In this document: piece after piece, positions 9,537-19,361 of the stretch
How the letters are laid out: the number at the start of each line of letters is the position of its first letter
Position numbering within the stretch: position 1 is the first letter of the stretch
DNA from: Desulfofustis sp.
GTDB lineage: Bacteria; Desulfobacterota; Desulfobulbia; Desulfobulbales; Desulfocapsaceae
DNA length: 41,206 nt
Assembly: GCA_013042475.1 (NCBI GenBank)
Contig: JABDQA010000124.1
Location: 1-41,206 of the forward strand
Reading direction: 5' to 3'
Notes under the pieces: generated by a model
What the model was told of the DNA's origin: nothing
What the model saw: the letters and a program-made list of their open reading frames with translations, nothing else
Databases searched by the model: none
Program-made: the position numbers and the translations under genes

Positions 9537-10823
9537 CTAATTCACGAACTGAGTGAAATAGAGTGCGATTTCCGGAAATAGAATCAAAAGTATGATCATA
9601 ATACCGATCATGAACACGAACGGTGCTGCACCAATCATTACATCGGTGATCGATCCGGTACGACGGACACCCTGCACCACATAGAGGTTGAGACCAACTG
9701 GCGGGGTTATCAGGGCCATTTCGATGAGTAGAATGAGCAGAATACCGAACCAGATGGGGTCGTATCCCATGCTGATCAGTATGGGCGCTATAATCGGAAT
9801 GGTGATAACCATCAGTGACAGCGTTTCAACAAAGAAACCGAGCACGATGTACAGAAGAATAACCACCAGCAGGGTTTGCAATGGTGACGCGCCGAGATTT
9901 GCTATAAAGTGATTGAGCATTTCGGCGAGGCCGATCGAGTCAAGGATGAAATTCAGGAAGTTTGCCGATATAAGAATCAGCATGATCATTGAGCTGGTGC
10001 GGATTGTCCCTTCGAAGACCTGTTTGAAAAAGTCGATGCTAACGGCCTTATAACGGAGTGCTAGAGCCAGCGATGCGAGAACACCCAACGCTGCGGATTC
10101 GGTCGGTGTTGCGAGACCTGCGTAAATGGAACCGATCACGACGACGAAGATAATCAGCACCGGAATCAGGTCCTGTAGGCAGATAAACCGTTGCCTCCAG
10201 GTGATTTCCTGCTTTCCACCACTGAGGGATGGGTTAATCAGGCATGCTATGCTCAGGCACAGCATAAACAGCATCGCCAGTAAGATTCCCGGTACAATGC
10301 CAGCTAGAAAAAGCCGTGGGATTGACGTGTTGGTGAGAAATCCGTAGACGATCAGGTTGATCGATGGTGGAATAAGGATCCCCAGAGTCCCACCAGCTGC
10401 AATTGAGCCGGTAAACAGCTTTTCCGAATAATGGAAACGCCTTCCCTGTGGCAGTGCGACGGTCGTAATGGTTGCCGCGGTCGCGACAGATGATCCCGAT
10501 GTGGCAGCAAACAGCGCTGATGTCCCGATATTGGCCTGCAGTAATCCGCCGGGCAGCCAGGATAACCAGTTATTAAGTGCGTTGTAGGTTTTTTCGGCAA
10601 TTCCGGCCCGCAATAGAATTTCCCCGAGCATCACGAAAAGCGGTATCGACAACAGCAGGAAATCGGTACTCGCTGACCATGTGATTTCCCCCATTGCCCG
10701 GTAGAGCGGATAATCGGAAAAGATTTTCCCAATGGACAGTCCCAGAAAGCTCAGCGCAGCGGCAACGGGAACACTGAGCACCAGAAGGAGCAGCAAAAGA
10801 AAAAGGGTAACGGCGACGATCAT
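9537..10823 (-). CDS. dctM: TRAP transporter large permease (DctM family)
   Basis: This 428-residue polytopic membrane protein is the large, ion-coupled permease subunit of a tripartite ATP-independent periplasmic transporter. It shows the DctM features: VPVAAALSFLG near the N-terminus, LLSIPLFVMLGEILLRAGIA, the SGSSVATAATI stretch, GGTLGILIPPSINLIVYGFL, ATPTESAALGVL, and LITPPVGLNLYVVQG near the end. It takes the substrate delivered by DctP and moves it across the inner membrane with an ion gradient. Its ATG overlaps the dctQ stop by four bases (ATGA). The upstream genes suggest an organic acid or amide substrate. Confidence 0.95.
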   Translation of the reverse strand: MIVAVTLFLLLLLLVLSVPVAAALSFLGLSIGKIFSDYPLYRAMGEITWSASTDFLLLSIPLFVMLGEILLRAGIAEKTYNALNNWLSWLPGGLLQANIGTSALFAATSGSSVATAATITTVALPQGRRFHYSEKLFTGSIAAGGTLGILIPPSINLIVYGFLTNTSIPRLFLAGIVPGILLAMLFMLCLSIACLINPSLSGGKQEITWRQRFICLQDLIPVLIIFVVVIGSIYAGLATPTESAALGVLASLALALRYKAVSIDFFKQVFEGTIRTSSMIMLILISANFLNFILDSIGLAEMLNHFIANLGASPLQTLLVVILLYIVLGFFVETLSLMVITIPIIAPILISMGYDPIWFGILLILLIEMALITPPVGLNLYVVQGVRRTGSITDVMIGAAPFVFMIGIMIILLILFPEIALYFTQFVN

Positions 10824-11407
10824 CGGTTCTGCTCCGGAGTGATAGCAACGTCTGCCGTTTCCTGGATTTCTTCGTCCAGAGTCGAGATGCCGGCGACTTT
10901 CTCCGCAAGTTCACGGTTGCCGCGAAAGCGGCAGTAGCAGGTGGTCCCGAGAATCACAAAGATCATCAACCCGAACCAGAACAGCCCCAGAAGCCACAGC
11001 ATCTGTGGAATCCACATCGGGGTTGCAAGCGGCGTATTGGCGACGGAATGCTTGATCACCGAAGTCTTAAGCACCAGAAAACCAAAATAAGAAAGGGTCA
11101 CGATATAGACCGCGAGCAAACCGTAGGCGAGCAGGTCGAGAATTGCTCGGCCAGTACCTGGCATTTTACTGTAGAGCACATCGATACGAATATGGGATTT
11201 CCTGAACAGTGCGTAGCTGAAGCCCCACGTGCAGCTGATGGCAAGCGCATAGCTGGACAGTTCATCAGCCCCGCCGATGGAGAAGGCAAAGGCTTTGCGC
11301 AGCACGACTTCAATCGCAATCATGACTGATGCGAGAAAAAGGAGCAGTCCTGAACACCACGCAGCGACCTGCGATAGTTTCTCAGATTTATCGAGCAAAC
11401 GTATCAT
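10820..11407 (-). CDS. dctQ: TRAP transporter small permease (DctQ family)
   Basis: This 195-residue protein has four predicted membrane helices and the DctQ pattern: an N-terminal amphipathic stretch, VVLRKAFAFSIGGADELSSYA (the family's conserved R...F.....W.EE/DE region), then SYALFRKSHIRIDVLYSKMP. The small subunit associates with DctM and is needed for function. It is translationally coupled to dctM by a four-base overlap, while an 80-base gap with a strong hairpin separates it from dctP. The charged C-terminal tail after the fourth helix is cytoplasmic. Confidence 0.93.
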   Translation of the reverse strand: MIRLLDKSEKLSQVAAWCSGLLLFLASVMIAIEVVLRKAFAFSIGGADELSSYALAISCTWGFSYALFRKSHIRIDVLYSKMPGTGRAILDLLAYGLLAVYIVTLSYFGFLVLKTSVIKHSVANTPLATPMWIPQMLWLLGLFWFGLMIFVILGTTCYCRFRGNRELAEKVAGISTLDEEIQETADVAITPEQNR

Positions 11408-11448
11408 GTGGCTGATGTACCCGGCAGATGGAATTTGAAATTGAGATT

Positions 11449-11478
11449 CGGGGCTGTACAGGCAGCAGTACAGCCCCG
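11449..11478 (-). terminator. Intercistronic hairpin between dctP and dctQ
   Basis: CGGGGCTGTAC (11449-11459) pairs perfectly with GTACAGCCCCG (11468-11478) around an 8-base loop, about 10 bases past the dctP stop. On the minus strand a moderately T-rich stretch follows. Its likely effect is partial termination or mRNA protection, giving more binding protein than permease, as TRAP operons commonly need. Confidence 0.65.
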
Positions 11479-11487
11479 TGGATGGAT

Positions 11488-12528
11488 TTATTTGCTTTGA
11501 ATGCCGACGACCTTACCGATGGTATCGTTCCAGGTGGCAATCGTGTCCGGACTAACCTTCTCAGCCAGTGCAGGCAGGACACTGTCAACCAGGACTTCCT
11601 GTACCTTCTTGCGGGCTTCATCGGTTACCGGAACTTCGGTGAGATTCTGCGGCTCACCGTGGGGGCATTCTTTGCCGGTCAGACAGGCGACGCCTTCCAG
11701 GGTTTCCTTTTCGGTAACCGCCCAGCCGGGAGTTTCCAGTTTATCTGTGATCAGTGCCTGCAGTTTATCCTGCTGCTCCTTGGAGAGTTTCTCCCAGGTG
11801 TTCATCGACATCACACCGATAACATAGTCCCAGCCACCAACCGGCAGGGGGTAGATATATTTCGACACTTCACCCCATCCTGCTGAATATCCGGATAGCG
11901 AACCGGTGATGGCTCCGTCCACGACTCCGCGTTGCAGCGATTGCGGAACTTCACTGAACGACATTGTTACTCCGGTGGCTCCCAGGGCGGTTACGAATTC
12001 AGACGTGGTCCATCCGGAAGCACGGATCTTCATGCCCTTCAGATCGTCGAGTCCGCCGATTTCCTCGCGGCTGAACAGAACCTGGGCAGGATACGGTACG
12101 ACACTGAGGAGTTTCACGTTGAAGTCTTTGGCCAGGTATTCTGCCAGTGCCGCTCGATAAGCGTCTACTGTTTTCTTTGCGGTGGCGATATCTGTGGTGA
12201 CGCCGGGGAGGTCGAGGCCGGCAATATCGGGGGAATCTGATACGATATAGTCAGCCACGGTGTGAACCACGTCAAATACACCCATGTCCATTTGGCGCAC
12301 GACGGCGGGTCCCTTCAGTTTTACCTGCCCCAGCGAGGTCATGCTCGTTTCGATACCGAGTTCCTGGGGAACCGTCTCGGTCCAGAATGGTTTTTCGAAA
12401 TTCTTGAACAGGGTCAGGCTGCTCCAACTGCCCACAACACGAAGATTGTCGGGGCCGGCAAGCGCCTGCGTGCAGGAAAATGCGAGGCCCACACAGATCA
12501 TTGCTGCAATTTTAATGGTGCGTTTCAT
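11488..12528 (-). CDS. dctP: TRAP transporter substrate-binding protein (DctP family)
   Basis: This 346-residue periplasmic protein has a signal peptide (MKRTIKIAAMICVGLAFSCT, cleavage likely after ALA near residue 24). The mature domain shows TRAP features: LRVVGSWSSLTLFKNFEKPF at the start, GLDDLKGMKIRASG carrying the conserved arginine that normally binds a substrate carboxylate, and SEVPQSLQRGVVDGAITG with the family's EVYQALQTGVVDG-like motif. It captures a carboxylate-type solute and hands it to DctQM. A cysteine pair in ACLTGKECPHG may form a disulfide. AGGAG precedes the ATG. It lies in one operon with three presumed catabolic enzymes. Confidence 0.93.
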   Translation of the reverse strand: MKRTIKIAAMICVGLAFSCTQALAGPDNLRVVGSWSSLTLFKNFEKPFWTETVPQELGIETSMTSLGQVKLKGPAVVRQMDMGVFDVVHTVADYIVSDSPDIAGLDLPGVTTDIATAKKTVDAYRAALAEYLAKDFNVKLLSVVPYPAQVLFSREEIGGLDDLKGMKIRASGWTTSEFVTALGATGVTMSFSEVPQSLQRGVVDGAITGSLSGYSAGWGEVSKYIYPLPVGGWDYVIGVMSMNTWEKLSKEQQDKLQALITDKLETPGWAVTEKETLEGVACLTGKECPHGEPQNLTEVPVTDEARKKVQEVLVDSVLPALAEKVSPDTIATWNDTIGKVVGIQSK

Positions 12529-12604
12529 GGTGTCTCCTACTTGGTTTTGGTTACGGGGAGCCTTTGGAGGTTCCCTCTTGTCAATGTCGTTACTTTGTTC
12601 ATAC

Positions 12605-13378
12605 TCAGAGTGTTGCGTAAGAGCTGTTTTTCAAATCGCTGACAAACATATAACCGGGCGCATGGCTGACCGCAAGTGGCAGCCTCGCTTGATGAACAAC
12701 ATTTTGGGGTGTTACACCGCAGGCCCAGAAAACCGGTGTTTCTCCGTCTTTGATTTCAACGAACTCACCGTAATCCGGCTCTGTTAAATTTGTGATTCCT
12801 ATTTTTTCAGGGTTGCCGATGTGAACCGGCGCACCGTGGACATCGGGATACCTGCCGGTTATGACAACTGCATCATCAACCCTTTGATCGAGGATTGGCC
12901 GCATGGATACTACCATATATCCATGGAAATCGCCTACCGGCGATAGCGGGATCGTGGTGCGGTACATGGCCACGTTTTTGCGCTGCTCGACATGGCGAAG
13001 CGGAATATCCGCTTCGATCAGCGCCTCCTCGAACGAAAAGCTGCACCCTAGCAAGAAAAATACGAAATCAGATGTATCCATGCCATGCAGGGATTGTACG
13101 GTGTCGGTACTGATACCTTCTCTCCAAATCTGGTAACGTGGGATCGTATTCCTGATATCCTCTCCTGGTGCCAGGTGTTTCGAGAAACTGCTGCCGGGGC
13201 CGATTACCTCAAGCAGGGGGCAGGGTTTGGGGTTCGCCCGACAGAATTTTTCAAAATCTTCCGCATATTTACTGGGGAACGCGGCGAGATTGGCCTGCAC
13301 ATAGCCAGGGCAGTAGCCGGCGGTGGGGCGGTCGAATGCTCCTGCTGCTGCAAGGGCTCTTAATTCAGCTGGTTTCAT
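12605..13378 (-). CDS. DUF1445 / YcsI-family putative hydro-lyase
   Basis: This 257-residue protein matches the DUF1445 (YcsI) family along its length: MKPAELRALAAAGAFDRPTA at the start, GYVQANLAAFP, FCRANPKPCPLLEV, FLLGCSFSFEEALIEADIPL, NVAMYRTTIPL, VVSMRP, GAPVHIGNPEKIGI, and VFWACGVTPQNV near the end. The family is annotated as putative hydro-lyase, and a related domain occurs in mammalian D-glutamate cyclase, so chemistry on a glutamate- or oxoproline-like compound is possible but unproven. It is encoded 14 bases after the amidase gene and 76 bases before dctP, in the same operon. Confidence 0.92.
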   Translation of the reverse strand: MKPAELRALAAAGAFDRPTAGYCPGYVQANLAAFPSKYAEDFEKFCRANPKPCPLLEVIGPGSSFSKHLAPGEDIRNTIPRYQIWREGISTDTVQSLHGMDTSDFVFFLLGCSFSFEEALIEADIPLRHVEQRKNVAMYRTTIPLSPVGDFHGYMVVSMRPILDQRVDDAVVITGRYPDVHGAPVHIGNPEKIGITNLTEPDYGEFVEIKDGETPVFWACGVTPQNVVHQARLPLAVSHAPGYMFVSDLKNSSYATL

Positions 13379-13391
13379 GGGGGGGGGTCCA

Positions 13392-14174
13392 TCAATAGAG
13401 TTCCGGTCTGCGATCCCTAAATACCGGCACTGCCTCCCTGATTCTGTTTACCGCTTCAGGGTCTATGTCTGCCATTGCAATTTCTTCTTGGAATTCGAGC
13501 TGGCACAGTTTTCTTCCATCCGGTCCGAGCATCTGGGTATGGCCCGCAAACGGGACATCTCCCATGGCACAATTATTTACCGCAATGACGTAGCATTGGT
13601 TTTCAACTGCCCGTGCTTTAAGTAGGGCCTGCCAGTGACTGAGTCTGGCCAGCGGCCACTCTGCTGATATGATCAGGGCCTGGGCTCCTTCCAGGGTCAG
13701 CTTCCTCAGGAGCTCACCAAACCGCAAATCGTAGCAGATGGTCAGCCCGAAGGTTACGCCTTCGATGGTATGAAGGCAGCGTCTGTCACCAGCAACGAGG
13801 TACTTGTCCTCGTCAAGCATCGGGACCAGGTGGACTTTGTCATAGGTTGCAACCAGGCTCCCGCCCCGGTCGATGACCTGGGCTCGGTTGGTTATTCCTC
13901 TCGGGGTTTTGGCAGCGACCGATCCCCCAGCAAACCAGATTCCATATCTGCGTGCCAGTTCACTGAGGAATTCAGCCTCTTCTTCGCCGTTCGATGATGC
14001 CAAACTGTCAAGTTCGGCGAGGGCATACCCGGTCGACCAGAGTTCGGGGAGCACAATAATGTCGGGCCGGCCGCCAGGCTGTTCCGCCGCTTTTTTGACC
14101 AGGGTTCCAGCTCGTGCGTAATTGGCCTGTTTGTCGCCGGGCACAATCGATTGCTGGATGAGGGCTATGCGCAT
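13392..14174 (-). CDS. Carbon-nitrogen hydrolase (nitrilase superfamily amidase)
   Basis: With the start at ATG 14174 this is a 260-residue soluble enzyme. The catalytic triad of the nitrilase superfamily is present: E44 in VLPELWSTGY, K113 in YDKVHL and C147 in LTICYDLRF. It cleaves a C-N bond in an amide, omega-amide or carbamoyl compound, releasing ammonia. The length and PELW/YDKVHL motifs suit the omega-amidase/predicted amidohydrolase branch. I chose the second ATG because AGGAG lies 8 bases upstream and the longer reading would overlap the DUF2848 gene. It probably acts on the compound brought in by the TRAP transporter or on an intermediate. Confidence 0.9.
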   Translation of the reverse strand: MRIALIQQSIVPGDKQANYARAGTLVKKAAEQPGGRPDIIVLPELWSTGYALAELDSLASSNGEEEAEFLSELARRYGIWFAGGSVAAKTPRGITNRAQVIDRGGSLVATYDKVHLVPMLDEDKYLVAGDRRCLHTIEGVTFGLTICYDLRFGELLRKLTLEGAQALIISAEWPLARLSHWQALLKARAVENQCYVIAVNNCAMGDVPFAGHTQMLGPDGRKLCQLEFQEEIAMADIDPEAVNRIREAVPVFRDRRPELY

Positions 14175-14178
14175 CTGC

Positions 14179-14874
14179 TCAGCTCCTGTCGGCCCGTACG
14201 ACAATCTCATACGATTTTACAATGGAGCGGTCAAGAATCGGGTCCGTCATGGTCATCTCACAGGCTGACGTATAGCGGGTCTCTCCGTCGATTATCGGCA
14301 GCGTGCCGCTAAGCAGTCCCGGTGCGTTTATGTCGGGATCGTCATCTTTTACGAGCAGCAGCAGATCCTCATAGTGCATGATTCTTTCAAGTGCACCTAC
14401 CTGGTAGGCAAGCCAGTTTCCGTCGTGCAGCACGCGCGAGGAGATCTCTATCTTGTTCCAGTGCTCGGCTACATCGTCCACGCACCAGAACTTATCCCCC
14501 AGCACTTTGTCACACACCTGTTTCGACTTACTAACGGAAACGGTCTCGAGTTCCCTGTCTGTATGGTCGCTGGCAATGGTGACGTAAAGAGTTCCGTCGC
14601 TGTCCGCGGCGATGAAGAACTCCACCTCTGGACTGGTCTGGTCACCGACGACCTGGATTTGAGACTGCCAGGTCAGGCGGTCGGGGCTGATCCAATAGAG
14701 AGCCGGAATTGTATACGGGGTCGGAACACCAAGCTTTTTCAACTCCTCGATATGTTCCTTTACCGATGCCTGATCACGGCCGGTATACCCTGCGGCAACA
14801 CAGCCGTCCATTATCAGTGTCCGAGTTGTCTCGGAGGAGTTCAACGGCTCGACGGACGCTTGAAAAGTAAACAT
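14179..14874 (-). CDS. DUF2848 family protein
   Basis: This 231-residue protein matches DUF2848: CVAAGYTGRDQASVKEHIEE near the N-terminus, ELKKLGVPTPYTIPALYWIS, ASDHTDRELETVSVSKSKQV with the conserved GSDHTDR-like segment, and LLSGTLPIIDGETRYTSACE followed by MTMTDPILDRSI. The pattern is reminiscent of fumarylacetoacetate-hydrolase-like enzymes, so metal-dependent hydrolysis or decarboxylation is possible. It is the first gene of the operon, with AGGAG before its ATG, and ends five bases before the amidase start. Its presence with amidase, YcsI and TRAP genes marks a dedicated catabolic unit. Confidence 0.88.
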   Translation of the reverse strand: MFTFQASVEPLNSSETTRTLIMDGCVAAGYTGRDQASVKEHIEELKKLGVPTPYTIPALYWISPDRLTWQSQIQVVGDQTSPEVEFFIAADSDGTLYVTIASDHTDRELETVSVSKSKQVCDKVLGDKFWCVDDVAEHWNKIEISSRVLHDGNWLAYQVGALERIMHYEDLLLLVKDDDPDINAPGLLSGTLPIIDGETRYTSACEMTMTDPILDRSIVKSYEIVVRADRS

Positions 14875-15622: not shown

Positions 15623-16927
15623 ATGGAAGGAGCGCTCCTGCCCATAATCGTTTTTTTTGTCGTATACGTCATTATCACTTTCGAGATCCTCAACAAGGCC
15701 GTGGCCGCCATGTTGGGGGTAATGATTCTTTTGGCGCTGCATGTTACCGACGAGCATCACGCGGTTAGTCTTATCGATGTGGAGACTATTATGCTGTTGC
15801 TGGGCATGATGAGCATTGTAGTAATCCTCAGAAAATCGGGAATATTCACCCTGCTTAGCGTCAAGATCGCTGAGTTGACCCAGGGCAGCCCGCTGAAAAT
15901 ACTCATTCTTTTCTCAGTAGTGACGGCAACGATGTCGGCGTTTCTCGACAATGTCACCACCGTGTTGATTATCATCCCCATCATCGTCGAGCTGACTGCC
16001 GGCATGGGACTTAATCCGCGGCTCTTCGTTATCAGCCAGGCAGTTATTTCCAACATTGGCGGCACCGCAACCCTTATCGGCGATCCGCCCAATATCATCA
16101 TCGGTTCCAAGGTGGGCCTGACTTTCAATCAGTTTGCCGTCAATCTCTTCGTACCGGTGGTGATCTCCTTTGGCCTCGCCTTGGTGATCATCTGGGCCAC
16201 CAATCGGGAAGTATTCAAGCCGGTCAACACCAGCCTGTCCAAACTGTTTTCTATCCAGCTGCTGCTCGAGAAAATCCGGCTCGATTTCCTCAACACCCCC
16301 ATTGACCGGATGCTGCTGATCAAAAGTGTGAGCTGCCTGGCACTAGCAATATTTCTTTTTATCACCCAGACTATCACCAAACTCTCACCGGGTGTCGTCG
16401 CCATGCTGGTGGCCATGATCCTGTTCAGCATCTCCAAAATGGATGTTGAAGAGATGCTGGAGGAGATCGAGTGGTCCACCCTGCTTTTCTTCGCCGGTCT
16501 GTTCATCCTGGTTGGTATTCTGGAGGAAAAAGGCGTGATCGAGTGGATCGCCCACAACGTCTTTTTACGGATCGGCGACGATCCTTACGTCATCGTCCTT
16601 ACCGTCCTCTGGGTGTCAGGTATCGCTTCGGGATTTCTTGACAACATCCCCTTCACCATCACCATGATCCCAGTAGTCCAGCTGATGATGGAAACGACCC
16701 CGGTGCCCCATAACATTCTCTGGTGGGCTCTGGCTCTTGGTGCCTGTCTGGGAGGCAACTTGACAATAATCGGCGCCTCTGCCAATATCGTCTCGATCGG
16801 CATGGCCAAGCAGTCCGGGGTGAAAATAAGCTTCATCGATTTCATGAAGACAAGTGCGCTGATCACCCTGGTCACGCTCTGTGTCGCCTCCGCCTACCTG
16901 TCACTTTATCTCTGGTTGAGCCAATGA
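15623..16927 (+). CDS. ArsB/NhaD-type ion transporter permease
   Basis: This 434-residue membrane protein has about 11 predicted helices arranged as two related halves. Each half carries the family's FLDN motif: SAFLDNVTTVLIIIPI at about residue 106 and SGFLDNIPFTITMIPVV at about 338. NIGGTATLIGDPPNIIIG in the first half is matched by GGNLTIIGASANIVSIG in the second; these re-entrant glycine-rich loops bind the transported ion in the ion-transporter superfamily. Members move Na+/H+, arsenite or carboxylates. No ars genes are adjacent, so a Na+/H+ or anion role is as likely as arsenite. Its stop overlaps the next start (ATGA), so the eIF2B-like protein is co-translated. Confidence 0.92.
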   Translation: MEGALLPIIVFFVVYVIITFEILNKAVAAMLGVMILLALHVTDEHHAVSLIDVETIMLLLGMMSIVVILRKSGIFTLLSVKIAELTQGSPLKILILFSVVTATMSAFLDNVTTVLIIIPIIVELTAGMGLNPRLFVISQAVISNIGGTATLIGDPPNIIIGSKVGLTFNQFAVNLFVPVVISFGLALVIIWATNREVFKPVNTSLSKLFSIQLLLEKIRLDFLNTPIDRMLLIKSVSCLALAIFLFITQTITKLSPGVVAMLVAMILFSISKMDVEEMLEEIEWSTLLFFAGLFILVGILEEKGVIEWIAHNVFLRIGDDPYVIVLTVLWVSGIASGFLDNIPFTITMIPVVQLMMETTPVPHNILWWALALGACLGGNLTIIGASANIVSIGMAKQSGVKISFIDFMKTSALITLVTLCVASAYLSLYLWLSQ

Positions 16928-17811
16928 ACCAAGCAGAAAAGGAAAATCTCGACAGTCTGTTTCTCTATCACGGCAACGTGCTGGGTGCTGCTCGGACCAC
17001 CTCGATGGCCCTCAATTCACTGATCAACGCCTTTGATCAGCTCGAGTGCGAACAGGATGAAATCTTCGAGCTCTATGAGGAACTTGCCGCGGCTATTAAA
17101 GCAGCTCAGCCACGAATCACTCCGTTGAGCCATATCCTGGAGCAGTTCGAGGAGGAGATGAAGCCTTTCTGGTCAAAAGACCTCGTCGAGCTCAGGGCCC
17201 GGGCGAAGAAGATCCTGAAAAAAAAGGTCGAGCTCTACCAGTCCCGGGCCGAGCGGGTCGTCCGTCATGGTATTAAGTTTGTCGAGGAGGGAGACGGCAT
17301 CATTGTTCATTCGGCCAGTTCCATGGTTACCAACGTACTGCTCCAGGCCAAACAGGTGATGCTCAAGGATTTTTCGGTCATTGTTCTGCAGCTCGATCCG
17401 GTCCGGACACCGCAGGTGGCTCTCACGCTGGAAGAGCAGGAGATCCCCCATATCGTAATCCCGGCTTTCAATCTCTGCCATTATGTCGAACAGGCTAACA
17501 AGATTCTACTCGGTGCGGTGAGTGTTACCCGAGACCTCAAAGTGGTCGCCCCGGTTGGAACCAGCACCACCCTGAGCCTGTGCCGGCTCAACGGCATAAA
17601 AAGCTACCTGTTCGCCAACTCATTTCATTTTTCCCATGGCCTTGCCGGCGCTCAGCGCATCTTTCGGACTGATGAGAAGGTTGCCTCGTCCCAGACTACC
17701 TATCATCTCACGACCCACTCCCACGACCTAGTTGATATAGAATTGATTGACACCCTGATCGACGAGGATGGCATTGTGGAGAATGAACGGCTCTGGGCGT
17801 TTGCTGGGTGA
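16924..17811 (+). CDS. eIF2B alpha/beta/delta-like protein, probably non-catalytic
   Basis: This 295-residue protein has an N-terminal helical half (to about residue 110) and a C-terminal Rossmann-like half of the eIF2B/MtnA/ribose-1,5-bisphosphate isomerase family: DGIIVHSASSMVTNVLL, VIVLQLDPVRTPQVALTLEE, IPHIVIPAFNLCHYVEQA, KVVAPVGTSTTLSLCRLNGI. Isomerases of the family carry a catalytic cysteine in a THCN motif; here the equivalent is HSASS (near residue 129), so isomerase activity is unlikely. It may instead bind a sugar phosphate or nucleotide and regulate. The start is ATG 16924, which overlaps the permease stop by four bases; a longer upstream reading lies inside the permease gene and was rejected. 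It probably regulates or serves the permease. Confidence 0.85.
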   Translation: MNQAEKENLDSLFLYHGNVLGAARTTSMALNSLINAFDQLECEQDEIFELYEELAAAIKAAQPRITPLSHILEQFEEEMKPFWSKDLVELRARAKKILKKKVELYQSRAERVVRHGIKFVEEGDGIIVHSASSMVTNVLLQAKQVMLKDFSVIVLQLDPVRTPQVALTLEEQEIPHIVIPAFNLCHYVEQANKILLGAVSVTRDLKVVAPVGTSTTLSLCRLNGIKSYLFANSFHFSHGLAGAQRIFRTDEKVASSQTTYHLTTHSHDLVDIELIDTLIDEDGIVENERLWAFAG

Positions 17812-17922
17812 AAATATTGAAAGAGCAAGTGTACACACGAACCGTCTTAGAGCAATAAAAGCAATCCCATATTCATGGTTATTCATCTCCTTATCGAACT
17901 TGTTAGAATCAAGAAAAATATG

Positions 17923-18843
17923 GACCCCATTGCCAAGATAATTACTTCAGTACTATCTCTTCTGATTCTCTTGAATGCATCCCCAACTTCTGCCTGTACG
18001 ATAATATCAGTTCATTTTAAAAGCGTTATATTGTTCGGGGGAAATGAGGATTTACCGCCAAGAAGTTCGTTTATGGTCATAGATAAGAGGGGAAAGTTAG
18101 GCGTTGTCTATTTTGCAACTCCATGGAAACAATGGCCGTTACTCGAGCAATCAGGTATCAACGAAAATGGATTGTGTTTTGATTTAAACTGGATTCCAAA
18201 AGAAGAACTTACTCCTCAACCGGAAAAATTAAGGCAGAATGAATGGGTCATAACCCAATTGATGCAGGAGGTTTCTACAGTGAAGGAGGCGCTTGCAAAA
18301 ATATTTGAATATAACTGGGGGGACTCTCTATCATATCAAGTGCATTTTGCAGATAAGTCCGGTGATGCCGCGATTATATATCCAGGCCTAAATGGTGAGC
18401 TTACATTTTCAAGAAGATCGAGAGGAAGCAACTACTTGGTATCAACCATGTATAATCATGCCAGACGTCTTAGAGCATCTTGGCTGGGACTCGATTTCCC
18501 CTATAAACTGTTGTTTGATTCCAAGTTCAGAGCTGCAGATGACATGCTTTCCGGATATGATTCTGAACAAGATTTTACCGTAGAATTTATGGGTTCAGTG
18601 CTTGAAGCAACCCATAGAAATTGGTGGTTTAGTACTCCATTCTCAATAAAGACTGTCTACTCAACTATTTTTGATCCCAGAAATTTACAAATATATTTGT
18701 ATTTCAATCGGCAATTTGCTCATCCACATGTCATAGATGTGCAACGAGAGTTACATGAAAGTAAATCCTATAAAAAGGTCTCATTAACGGATTTGGTTTC
18801 TCATGAAAATACACAAATAGAATCTACTCTGGAAAAACCGTAG
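17923..18843 (+). CDS. Exported linear amide C-N hydrolase (choloylglycine hydrolase-like Ntn family)
   Basis: From ATG 17923 the 306-residue product has a signal peptide (MDPIAKIITSVLSLLILLNA...SPTSA) directly followed by a cysteine (CTIISVHFKSVILFGGNEDL). In Ntn hydrolases of the C45/C59 and penicillin-acylase-like groups the new N-terminal cysteine is the nucleophile, followed by a G.N.D segment as here. The later GINENGLCFDLN and YQVHFADKSGDAAIIY segments fit the fold. It would cleave an amide bond in the periplasm. An earlier in-frame ATG (17875) adds 16 residues ahead of the signal peptide and neither start has a strong ribosome binding site. The gene is visibly more AT-rich than its neighbours, suggesting transfer into the locus. 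Confidence 0.8.
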   Translation, partial: DPIAKIITSVLSLLILLNASPTSACTIISVHFKSVILFGGNEDLPPRSSFMVIDKRGKLGVVYFATPWKQWPLLEQSGINENGLCFDLNWIPKEELTPQPEKLRQNEWVITQLMQEVSTVKEALAKIFEYNWGDSLSYQVHFADKSGDAAIIYPGLNGELTFSRRSRGSNYLVSTMYNHARRLRASWLGLDFPYKLLFDSKFRAADDMLSGYDSEQDFTVEFMGSVLEATHRNWWFSTPFSIKTVYSTIFDPRNLQIYLYFNRQFAHPHVIDVQRELHESKSYKKVSLTDLVSHENTQIESTLEKP

Positions 18844-18896
18844 ACCTCCTGTATATTGCTTTTTACCCTAATAAAATTTCATAGAATGTAAGTAGC

Positions 18897-19361
18897 ATGC
18901 GTGACCTTATAGAGAAAAGCGTCATCGATAAATTTTCGTTTCAACTGGGAATGATAAACTGTTTTGCTGAGATGGTGGCTTGCGGAGTAAAGAAACTGGC
19001 CATAAGCCCGCCTCTGTTGCCAAGCCAATATGAAACCATCGCCCCCTATTCTGAAAAAATAGTCGAAGGCTTTGCCATAGAGTCCTATCTGGAGAACTCA
19101 CTGCTGATTACCTTGCTGCAGTCGCCCGAATTTACCCGGGGCAAATGTTCGATCCTCTATTACAAAAGTGGATCGATCTTGGAGACCTATCTCGAGCTTA
19201 AAGCCAGACAAGCCTCACTGGTCGAGTCGGGCCGCTATGATGTCCAGTCCCGGGAGGAAATATCGATCGCCTTCATGGAACTGCTTACCTATCCGCCAGA
19301 GGTGATCGAAGCAAAACTCGCGGGTTCTCATCCGGATCCGTTTCTGATTATCGAACCATGA
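18897..19361 (+). CDS. Protein of unknown function downstream of the permease/eIF2B-like genes
   Basis: This 154-residue soluble protein was not recognised. It has alternating helix and strand patterns: MINCFAEMVACGVKKLAISP, ENSLLITLLQSPEFTRGKCS, ILYYKSGSILETYLELKARQ, and EISIAFMELLTYPPEVIEAK. No membrane segment, signal peptide or known catalytic motif is visible. Its codon use and G+C resemble the permease and eIF2B-like genes rather than the AT-rich hydrolase between them, so it may originally have belonged to their operon. After the stop the same frame stays open for 23 codons with protein-like content (IPDLFRRLEDSGGGTDHAIR), which may be decayed coding sequence. Confidence 0.65.
   Translation: MRDLIEKSVIDKFSFQLGMINCFAEMVACGVKKLAISPPLLPSQYETIAPYSEKIVEGFAIESYLENSLLITLLQSPEFTRGKCSILYYKSGSILETYLELKARQASLVESGRYDVQSREEISIAFMELLTYPPEVIEAKLAGSHPDPFLIIEP

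Follow-up and report, generated by a model that had tools for sequence, protein, structure and literature searches.

Why should the gene for an ion permease overlap a gene for a protein that resembles an isomerase and lacks the isomerase's catalytic residues? This question was raised by a 41,206-nucleotide stretch of Desulfofustis sp. DNA (assembly GCA_013042475.1, contig JABDQA010000124.1, positions 1 to 41,206; hereafter, the window). In the window, a CitMHS (PF03600) permease of the IT superfamily (434 amino acids; 15623–16927, plus strand) is followed on the same strand by a 295-amino-acid eIF2B-like pseudo-isomerase (16924–17811), a PF01008 protein with the fold of ribose-1,5-bisphosphate isomerase (R15Pi) and eIF2B. 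The answer that we consider most probable, ahead of three alternatives weighed below, is that the eIF2B-like protein senses a metabolite and regulates the permease as its partner.

The pairing of the two genes was not a chance observation, because it was kept in 47 loci, which spanned many families and were not all independent, some coming from near-identical genomes. Among the Desulfobacterota DNA that we fetched, 47 of 48 members of the eIF2B-like family were encoded directly downstream of, and on the same strand as, permeases of one clade, which is the conserved gene linkage expected of a transporter–sensor pair of the GlnK–AmtB kind. A survey of homologue neighborhoods had been proposed in the preliminary description as a way of refuting a regulatory role, and these counts did not refute it. 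The permease clade was set off by a clear gap in score, with full-length matches of at least 620 bits for its members and at most 341 bits for other permeases. The eIF2B-like protein was present in 42 of 389 genomes and 22 of 148 genera sampled from the class of genome G347, and Desulfocicer vacuolatum DSM 3385 (L010) is a host of the pair that is in culture. Relatives occurred in three genomes of the genus Desulfofustis, and neither gene was seen in two other genomes of that genus. A phylum-wide sample yielded family members only in the genome of the window and in one genome of the class of G347; all other matches were far weaker (48.6 bits or less) and consistent with isomerases. Outside Desulfobacterota, coverage consisted of a narrow contig scan with two patterns, which missed most of the known Desulfobacteria members, and no relatives were found on plasmids or viral contigs. 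No report of the pairing turned up in the open-access literature searched, and it appears to be previously undescribed.

The arrangement of the genes was also conserved. The permease stop codon and the start codon of the eIF2B-like gene share an ATGA at 16924–16927 on the plus strand, as described earlier, and the same four-base overlap was found in 37 of the 47 loci, the remaining loci having 1–120 bases between the genes. A Shine–Dalgarno-like motif preceded 38 of 47 permease starts, as compared with only 4 of 47 starts of the eIF2B-like gene; in a small control sample of other ATGA gene pairs from the same DNA, the motif was present in 8 of 16 cases, and the pair studied here had it in 3 of 20 (p 0.03). 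The scarcity of this motif suggests that ribosomes finishing the permease re-initiate on the eIF2B-like gene, which would link the dosage of the two proteins. The earlier wording that the two are fused by translation needs correction: the products are two separate proteins, and what joins the overlapping genes is probably translational coupling. A fused permease–eIF2B protein was considered and rejected, since no fused frame was found and the long open frames around some eIF2B-like genes merely read through the permease gene out of frame. An upstream GTG at 16723, given as the start of the eIF2B-like gene in a program-made list of open reading frames (ORFs), was likewise judged spurious.

What kind of protein does the second gene encode? 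It scored 70.7 bits against PF01008 (IF-2B family; gathering cut-off, 22.4), and an AlphaFold2 model built from the window and related loci (predicted local distance difference test, 76; predicted template modeling score, 0.73) matched R15Pi, aIF2B, and eIF2B subunits in the PDB along its full length; the best matches, R15Pi and aIF2B, had Z of about 26 over 266–287 residues, with a maximum of 26.4. The scores fell far below the cut-offs of the isomerase models TIGR00511 (44.3 vs 314) and TIGR00524 (29.6 vs 186) and of NF006210 (56.7 vs 339 bits). Catalysis by R15Pi requires Cys135 and Asp204 in Pyrococcus horikoshii numbering (PMC5789824). The HSASS motif pointed out previously is indeed present at residues 129–133 (17308–17322, plus strand), where R15Pi has HCHSK, so that Ser130 takes the place of the catalytic Cys, and Val199 (17518–17520, plus strand) occupies the position of the catalytic Asp. 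Both catalytic residues were missing in all 48 family members: the Cys position was Ser or Thr in 44 of 48, and the Asp position was always Val, Leu, Ile, or Met. The alignment of catalytic residues, a second check proposed at the outset, thus restored Cys or Asp in 0 of 48 members and did not refute a noncatalytic role. Because the genome of the window also encodes a separate MtnA with an intact THCN motif, the eIF2B-like protein is not the methylthioribose-phosphate isomerase of the cell.

Part of the pocket was nevertheless retained when residues were mapped onto R15Pi by sequence alignment rather than from a ligand-bound structure, with the R15Pi ligand residues taken from PMC5789824. Asn214 and Lys215, which contact the sugar ring in R15Pi, were lost in 47 of 47 paired members, their positions being A/T/C/S/V and A/P/G/S/T, respectively. 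The phosphate side was kept: the position of Gly23 was an invariant Gly (G21, 47/47), those of the 5-phosphate ligands Ser137 and Lys240 were S/T132 in 44 of 47 and K/H235 in 46 of 47, and that of Gln166 was K/R161 in 47 of 47. The isomerase itself can still bind its substrate when mutated to C135S or D204N (PMC5789824). To judge from these alignments, the residue pattern is that of a binding protein rather than of an R15P isomerase.

The pocket residues bear directly on two of the alternatives. The eIF2B-like protein could be an active enzyme performing new chemistry on the imported or exported substrate, with H70, E73, E76, D204, C220/H221, S237/H238, and S266-H267-D268 replacing the Cys/Asp pair. 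These polar residues, which overlap the new family-wide motifs T-x-D (202–204), CH (220–221), SH (237–238), and SHD (266–268), are nearly invariant in the family and differ from those of isomerases, and genes for enzymes often lie together with those for the transporters of their substrates. We nevertheless regard this alternative as unlikely, since the classical catalytic positions are now hydrophobic or small, decay of a permease loop described below points to contact with the permease, and no further metabolic gene accompanies the pair consistently; when we looked for such a neighbor as a clue to the substrate, the pair loci offered only housekeeping synteny at some sites. Alternatively, the protein could be a ligand-independent assembly or stability factor, that is, a structural subunit of the permease. 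Coupled translation and the near-obligate pairing would also fit this role, but it offers no obvious reason why phosphate-side residues should persist in almost every paired member, and we give it a still smaller chance than the enzyme.

The identity of the permease was examined with family models. It scored 273 bits (E 4.6e-81) against CitMHS (PF03600; gathering cut-off, 31.9) and had detectable sequence similarity to VcINDY and ArsB. The label ArsB/NhaD-type given to it earlier was imprecise, and the protein is better called a CitMHS/IT-superfamily permease: it fell short of the NhaD models TIGR00775 (54.2 vs 577) and NF038006 (36 vs 80), the DASS model TIGR00785 (98.8 vs 198.6), the NCBIfam ArsB models (88 vs 457 and 67 vs 415), and the NCBIfam MamN model, while its score on Pfam ArsB was 43.5 (cut-off, 22.2) as compared with 273 on CitMHS. 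Relative to other CitMHS/DASS/ArsB permeases, it shares the CitMHS domain and the similarity to VcINDY, but forms a clade of its own that lies below the curated cut-offs and is associated with the eIF2B-like protein. In the class of the window, the permeases next in similarity (L016–L037) formed a separate group encoded by ORFs of about 600 amino acids, with an extra N-terminal region and an apparent signal peptide. An AlphaFold2 model of the permease (predicted local distance difference test, 40; predicted template modeling score, 0.24) was not used.

If the two proteins act together, a site of contact might be recognizable in the permease. The hydrophilic stretch richest in Lys and Arg is a central loop at residues about 189–235, and because of this enrichment it is probably cytoplasmic by the positive-inside rule; its K+R content, together with its loss and divergence pattern, marks residues 195–235 (16205–16327, plus strand) as a putative docking site. 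Genome G787 was the only one with the permease and without a detectable eIF2B-like gene, and of the 19 loop positions that are invariant in the other permeases, its permease had lost 8, as compared with 14 of 198 elsewhere (Fisher 1e-4). Reciprocally, in G820, the only genome in which an eIF2B-like protein lacked the permease, that protein had lost 19 of the 38 invariant positions, whereas no other member had lost more than 8 of 38. Tree distances of the permease and its partner were correlated (r 0.81; permuted maximum, 0.21), and among all 47-residue windows of the permease, those at 199–251 tracked divergence of the partner best, with a partial rank correlation of about 0.4 that was corrected for the rest of the permease and still includes phylogeny. 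Each of these tests is weak alone, and together they point in the same direction.

Both orphan loci had further neighbors of note. In G787 (L146:554–3928), the permease stop overlaps the start of the next gene, in an ABC-transporter-like cluster. In G820 (L145:7744–12689), the divergent, permease-less eIF2B-like paralog lies downstream of CorA-type and MscS-type genes, another ion-transport neighborhood.

The fate of the orphans also bears on the third alternative, in which the genes share nothing more than inheritance as an operon and the function of the eIF2B-like protein lies elsewhere, such as in translation or nucleotide salvage. Relatives of eIF2B in other lineages do act in translation and in adenosine monophosphate (AMP) and methylthioribose metabolism (PMC5789824). 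Nevertheless, each orphaned partner decayed, and the neighbors of the pair are otherwise variable, even between Desulfofustis species, while the pair itself stays together and, where present twice, is present as a pair, with two copies in each of four genomes (G802, G958, G665, and G928). Moreover, no eIF2 is known in bacteria. We therefore consider mere co-inheritance the least probable of the explanations, and improbable in itself.

About ten Desulfobacteria loci (L111, L120, L132, L151, and others) have common housekeeping neighbors around the pair: ClpB flanks it on one side, and the other side carries a cluster for a DHH phosphoesterase, a metallo-beta-lactamase, siroheme synthase, cytochrome c assembly, and HemA. 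Within Desulfofustis, nonsynonymous divergence was 0.13–0.16 for the eIF2B-like gene and 0.08–0.10 for the permease; a ratio to synonymous divergence was computable for one pair only, synonymous sites being saturated.

We propose that the permease and the eIF2B-like protein would constitute a single functional unit. The latter would be a cytosolic pseudoenzyme derived from the R15Pi/eIF2B-alpha fold, which would have lost isomerase catalysis and retained a phosphate-binding half-pocket. Both proteins would be produced from one mRNA through coupled translation, the pseudoenzyme would dock on the central cytoplasmic loop of the permease, and transport would be opened or closed by occupancy of the pocket with a phosphorylated metabolite, such as a nucleotide monophosphate or a sugar phosphate. 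Stated this specifically, namely that a secondary transporter has an eIF2B/R15Pi-fold pseudoenzyme as its dedicated allosteric subunit, which docks on its central loop and makes the flux of ions or anions depend on a phosphorylated metabolite, the proposal is tentative, and we put it at slightly below an even chance. The regulatory or ligand-sensing role suggested in the preliminary description remains the best explanation rather than a demonstrated one. Comparative sequence data show the pairing, the gene overlap, the loss of both catalytic residues, the retention of phosphate-side positions, and the decay of orphaned partners.

Several points weigh against the proposal. Physical docking, the identity of the ligand, the direction of control, and the transported substrate are inferred. 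The residues by which R15Pi binds AMP are only partly kept in the eIF2B-like family. The two cases of partner loss come from one genome each, that of G787 being a draft of 86% completeness, and a divergent pair (L140) showed decay at 5 of 20 loop positions despite the presence of its partner. Finally, shared vertical inheritance would likewise lead to correlated tree distances.

The genes that follow the pair in the window do not belong to the system. A C45/AAT-like hydrolase of 322 amino acids (17875–18843, plus strand) and a 154-amino-acid ORF of an uncharacterized family (18897–19361, plus strand; no Pfam, NCBIfam, or PHROG match) are both present as previously described, and neither was found beside the pair at other loci. 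The idea that the 154-residue gene is a third component was not borne out, as no homolog occurred at any other pair locus. Its family comprises proteins of about 150 amino acids, and its distant relatives (L176, L177, and L178; 38–42% identical over a portion of their length) come from another Desulfobacterota family, where they are encoded after LivG/LivF-type ABC ATPase genes. Its composition, said to be similar to that of the pair, is only roughly so (G+C content 48% vs 52% for the permease and 54% for the eIF2B-like gene). The hydrolase, at 38% G+C, looks like a recent AT-rich insertion between the pair and the 154-amino-acid ORF, and its apparent signal peptide ends immediately ahead of a Cys. 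Elsewhere in the window, the minus strand at 9537–14874 carries TRAP transporter genes (DctM, DctQ, and DctP) together with genes for a D-glutamate cyclase-family protein, a carbon–nitrogen hydrolase, and a DUF2848 protein.

How does the pair compare with known systems? The paired proteins share with R15Pi and MtnA the full-length fold (Z 26), the two-domain layout, and the phosphate-side pocket positions, but lack the catalytic Cys/Asp and the sugar-ring Asn/Lys and are encoded with a permease. Archaeal aIF2B-like PH0440 (PDB ID: 1vb5; NF006210 type), a top profile match and one of the closest structures over the full length (Z 26.4), also has HS-x-SS in place of HC and a TKD resembling T-x-D, but keeps the Asp and Asn-Lys that are lost here. 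Human eIF2B-alpha is regulated by sugar phosphates that occupy its vestigial catalytic pocket (PMC8187479). That protein is likewise a dead member of the fold that kept a sugar-phosphate pocket and became a metabolite sensor, a role proposed for the present family; the latter is bacterial, would have a permease rather than the eIF2B decamer as its partner, and has also lost the sugar-coordinating acidic residue and Asn. GlnK and AMP-bound SbtB regulate permeases directly (PMC10710835), and GlnK–AmtB and SbtB–SbtA resemble our pair in joining a gene-linked cytosolic protein to a permease, with metabolite binding being inferred in our case; PII proteins are ferredoxin-like trimers of unrelated fold and act on other transporter families.

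The known cases in which a cytosolic sensor directly controls a bacterial secondary transporter mainly involve PII proteins, and eIF2B is absent from a 2023 review of transporter regulators (PMC10710835). If our proposal is true, a dead isomerase would represent a new class of transporter sensor, and the family would be a second, independent case, after eIF2B-alpha, of this enzyme fold turned metabolite sensor. The pair would also be a simple setting in which to study the path from isomerase to sensor, a path taken as well by human eIF2B-alpha, in which a pocket mutation leads to Vanishing White Matter disease (PMC8187479). For sulfate reducers, the system may link the energy or nucleotide state of the cell to an ion or anion carrier.

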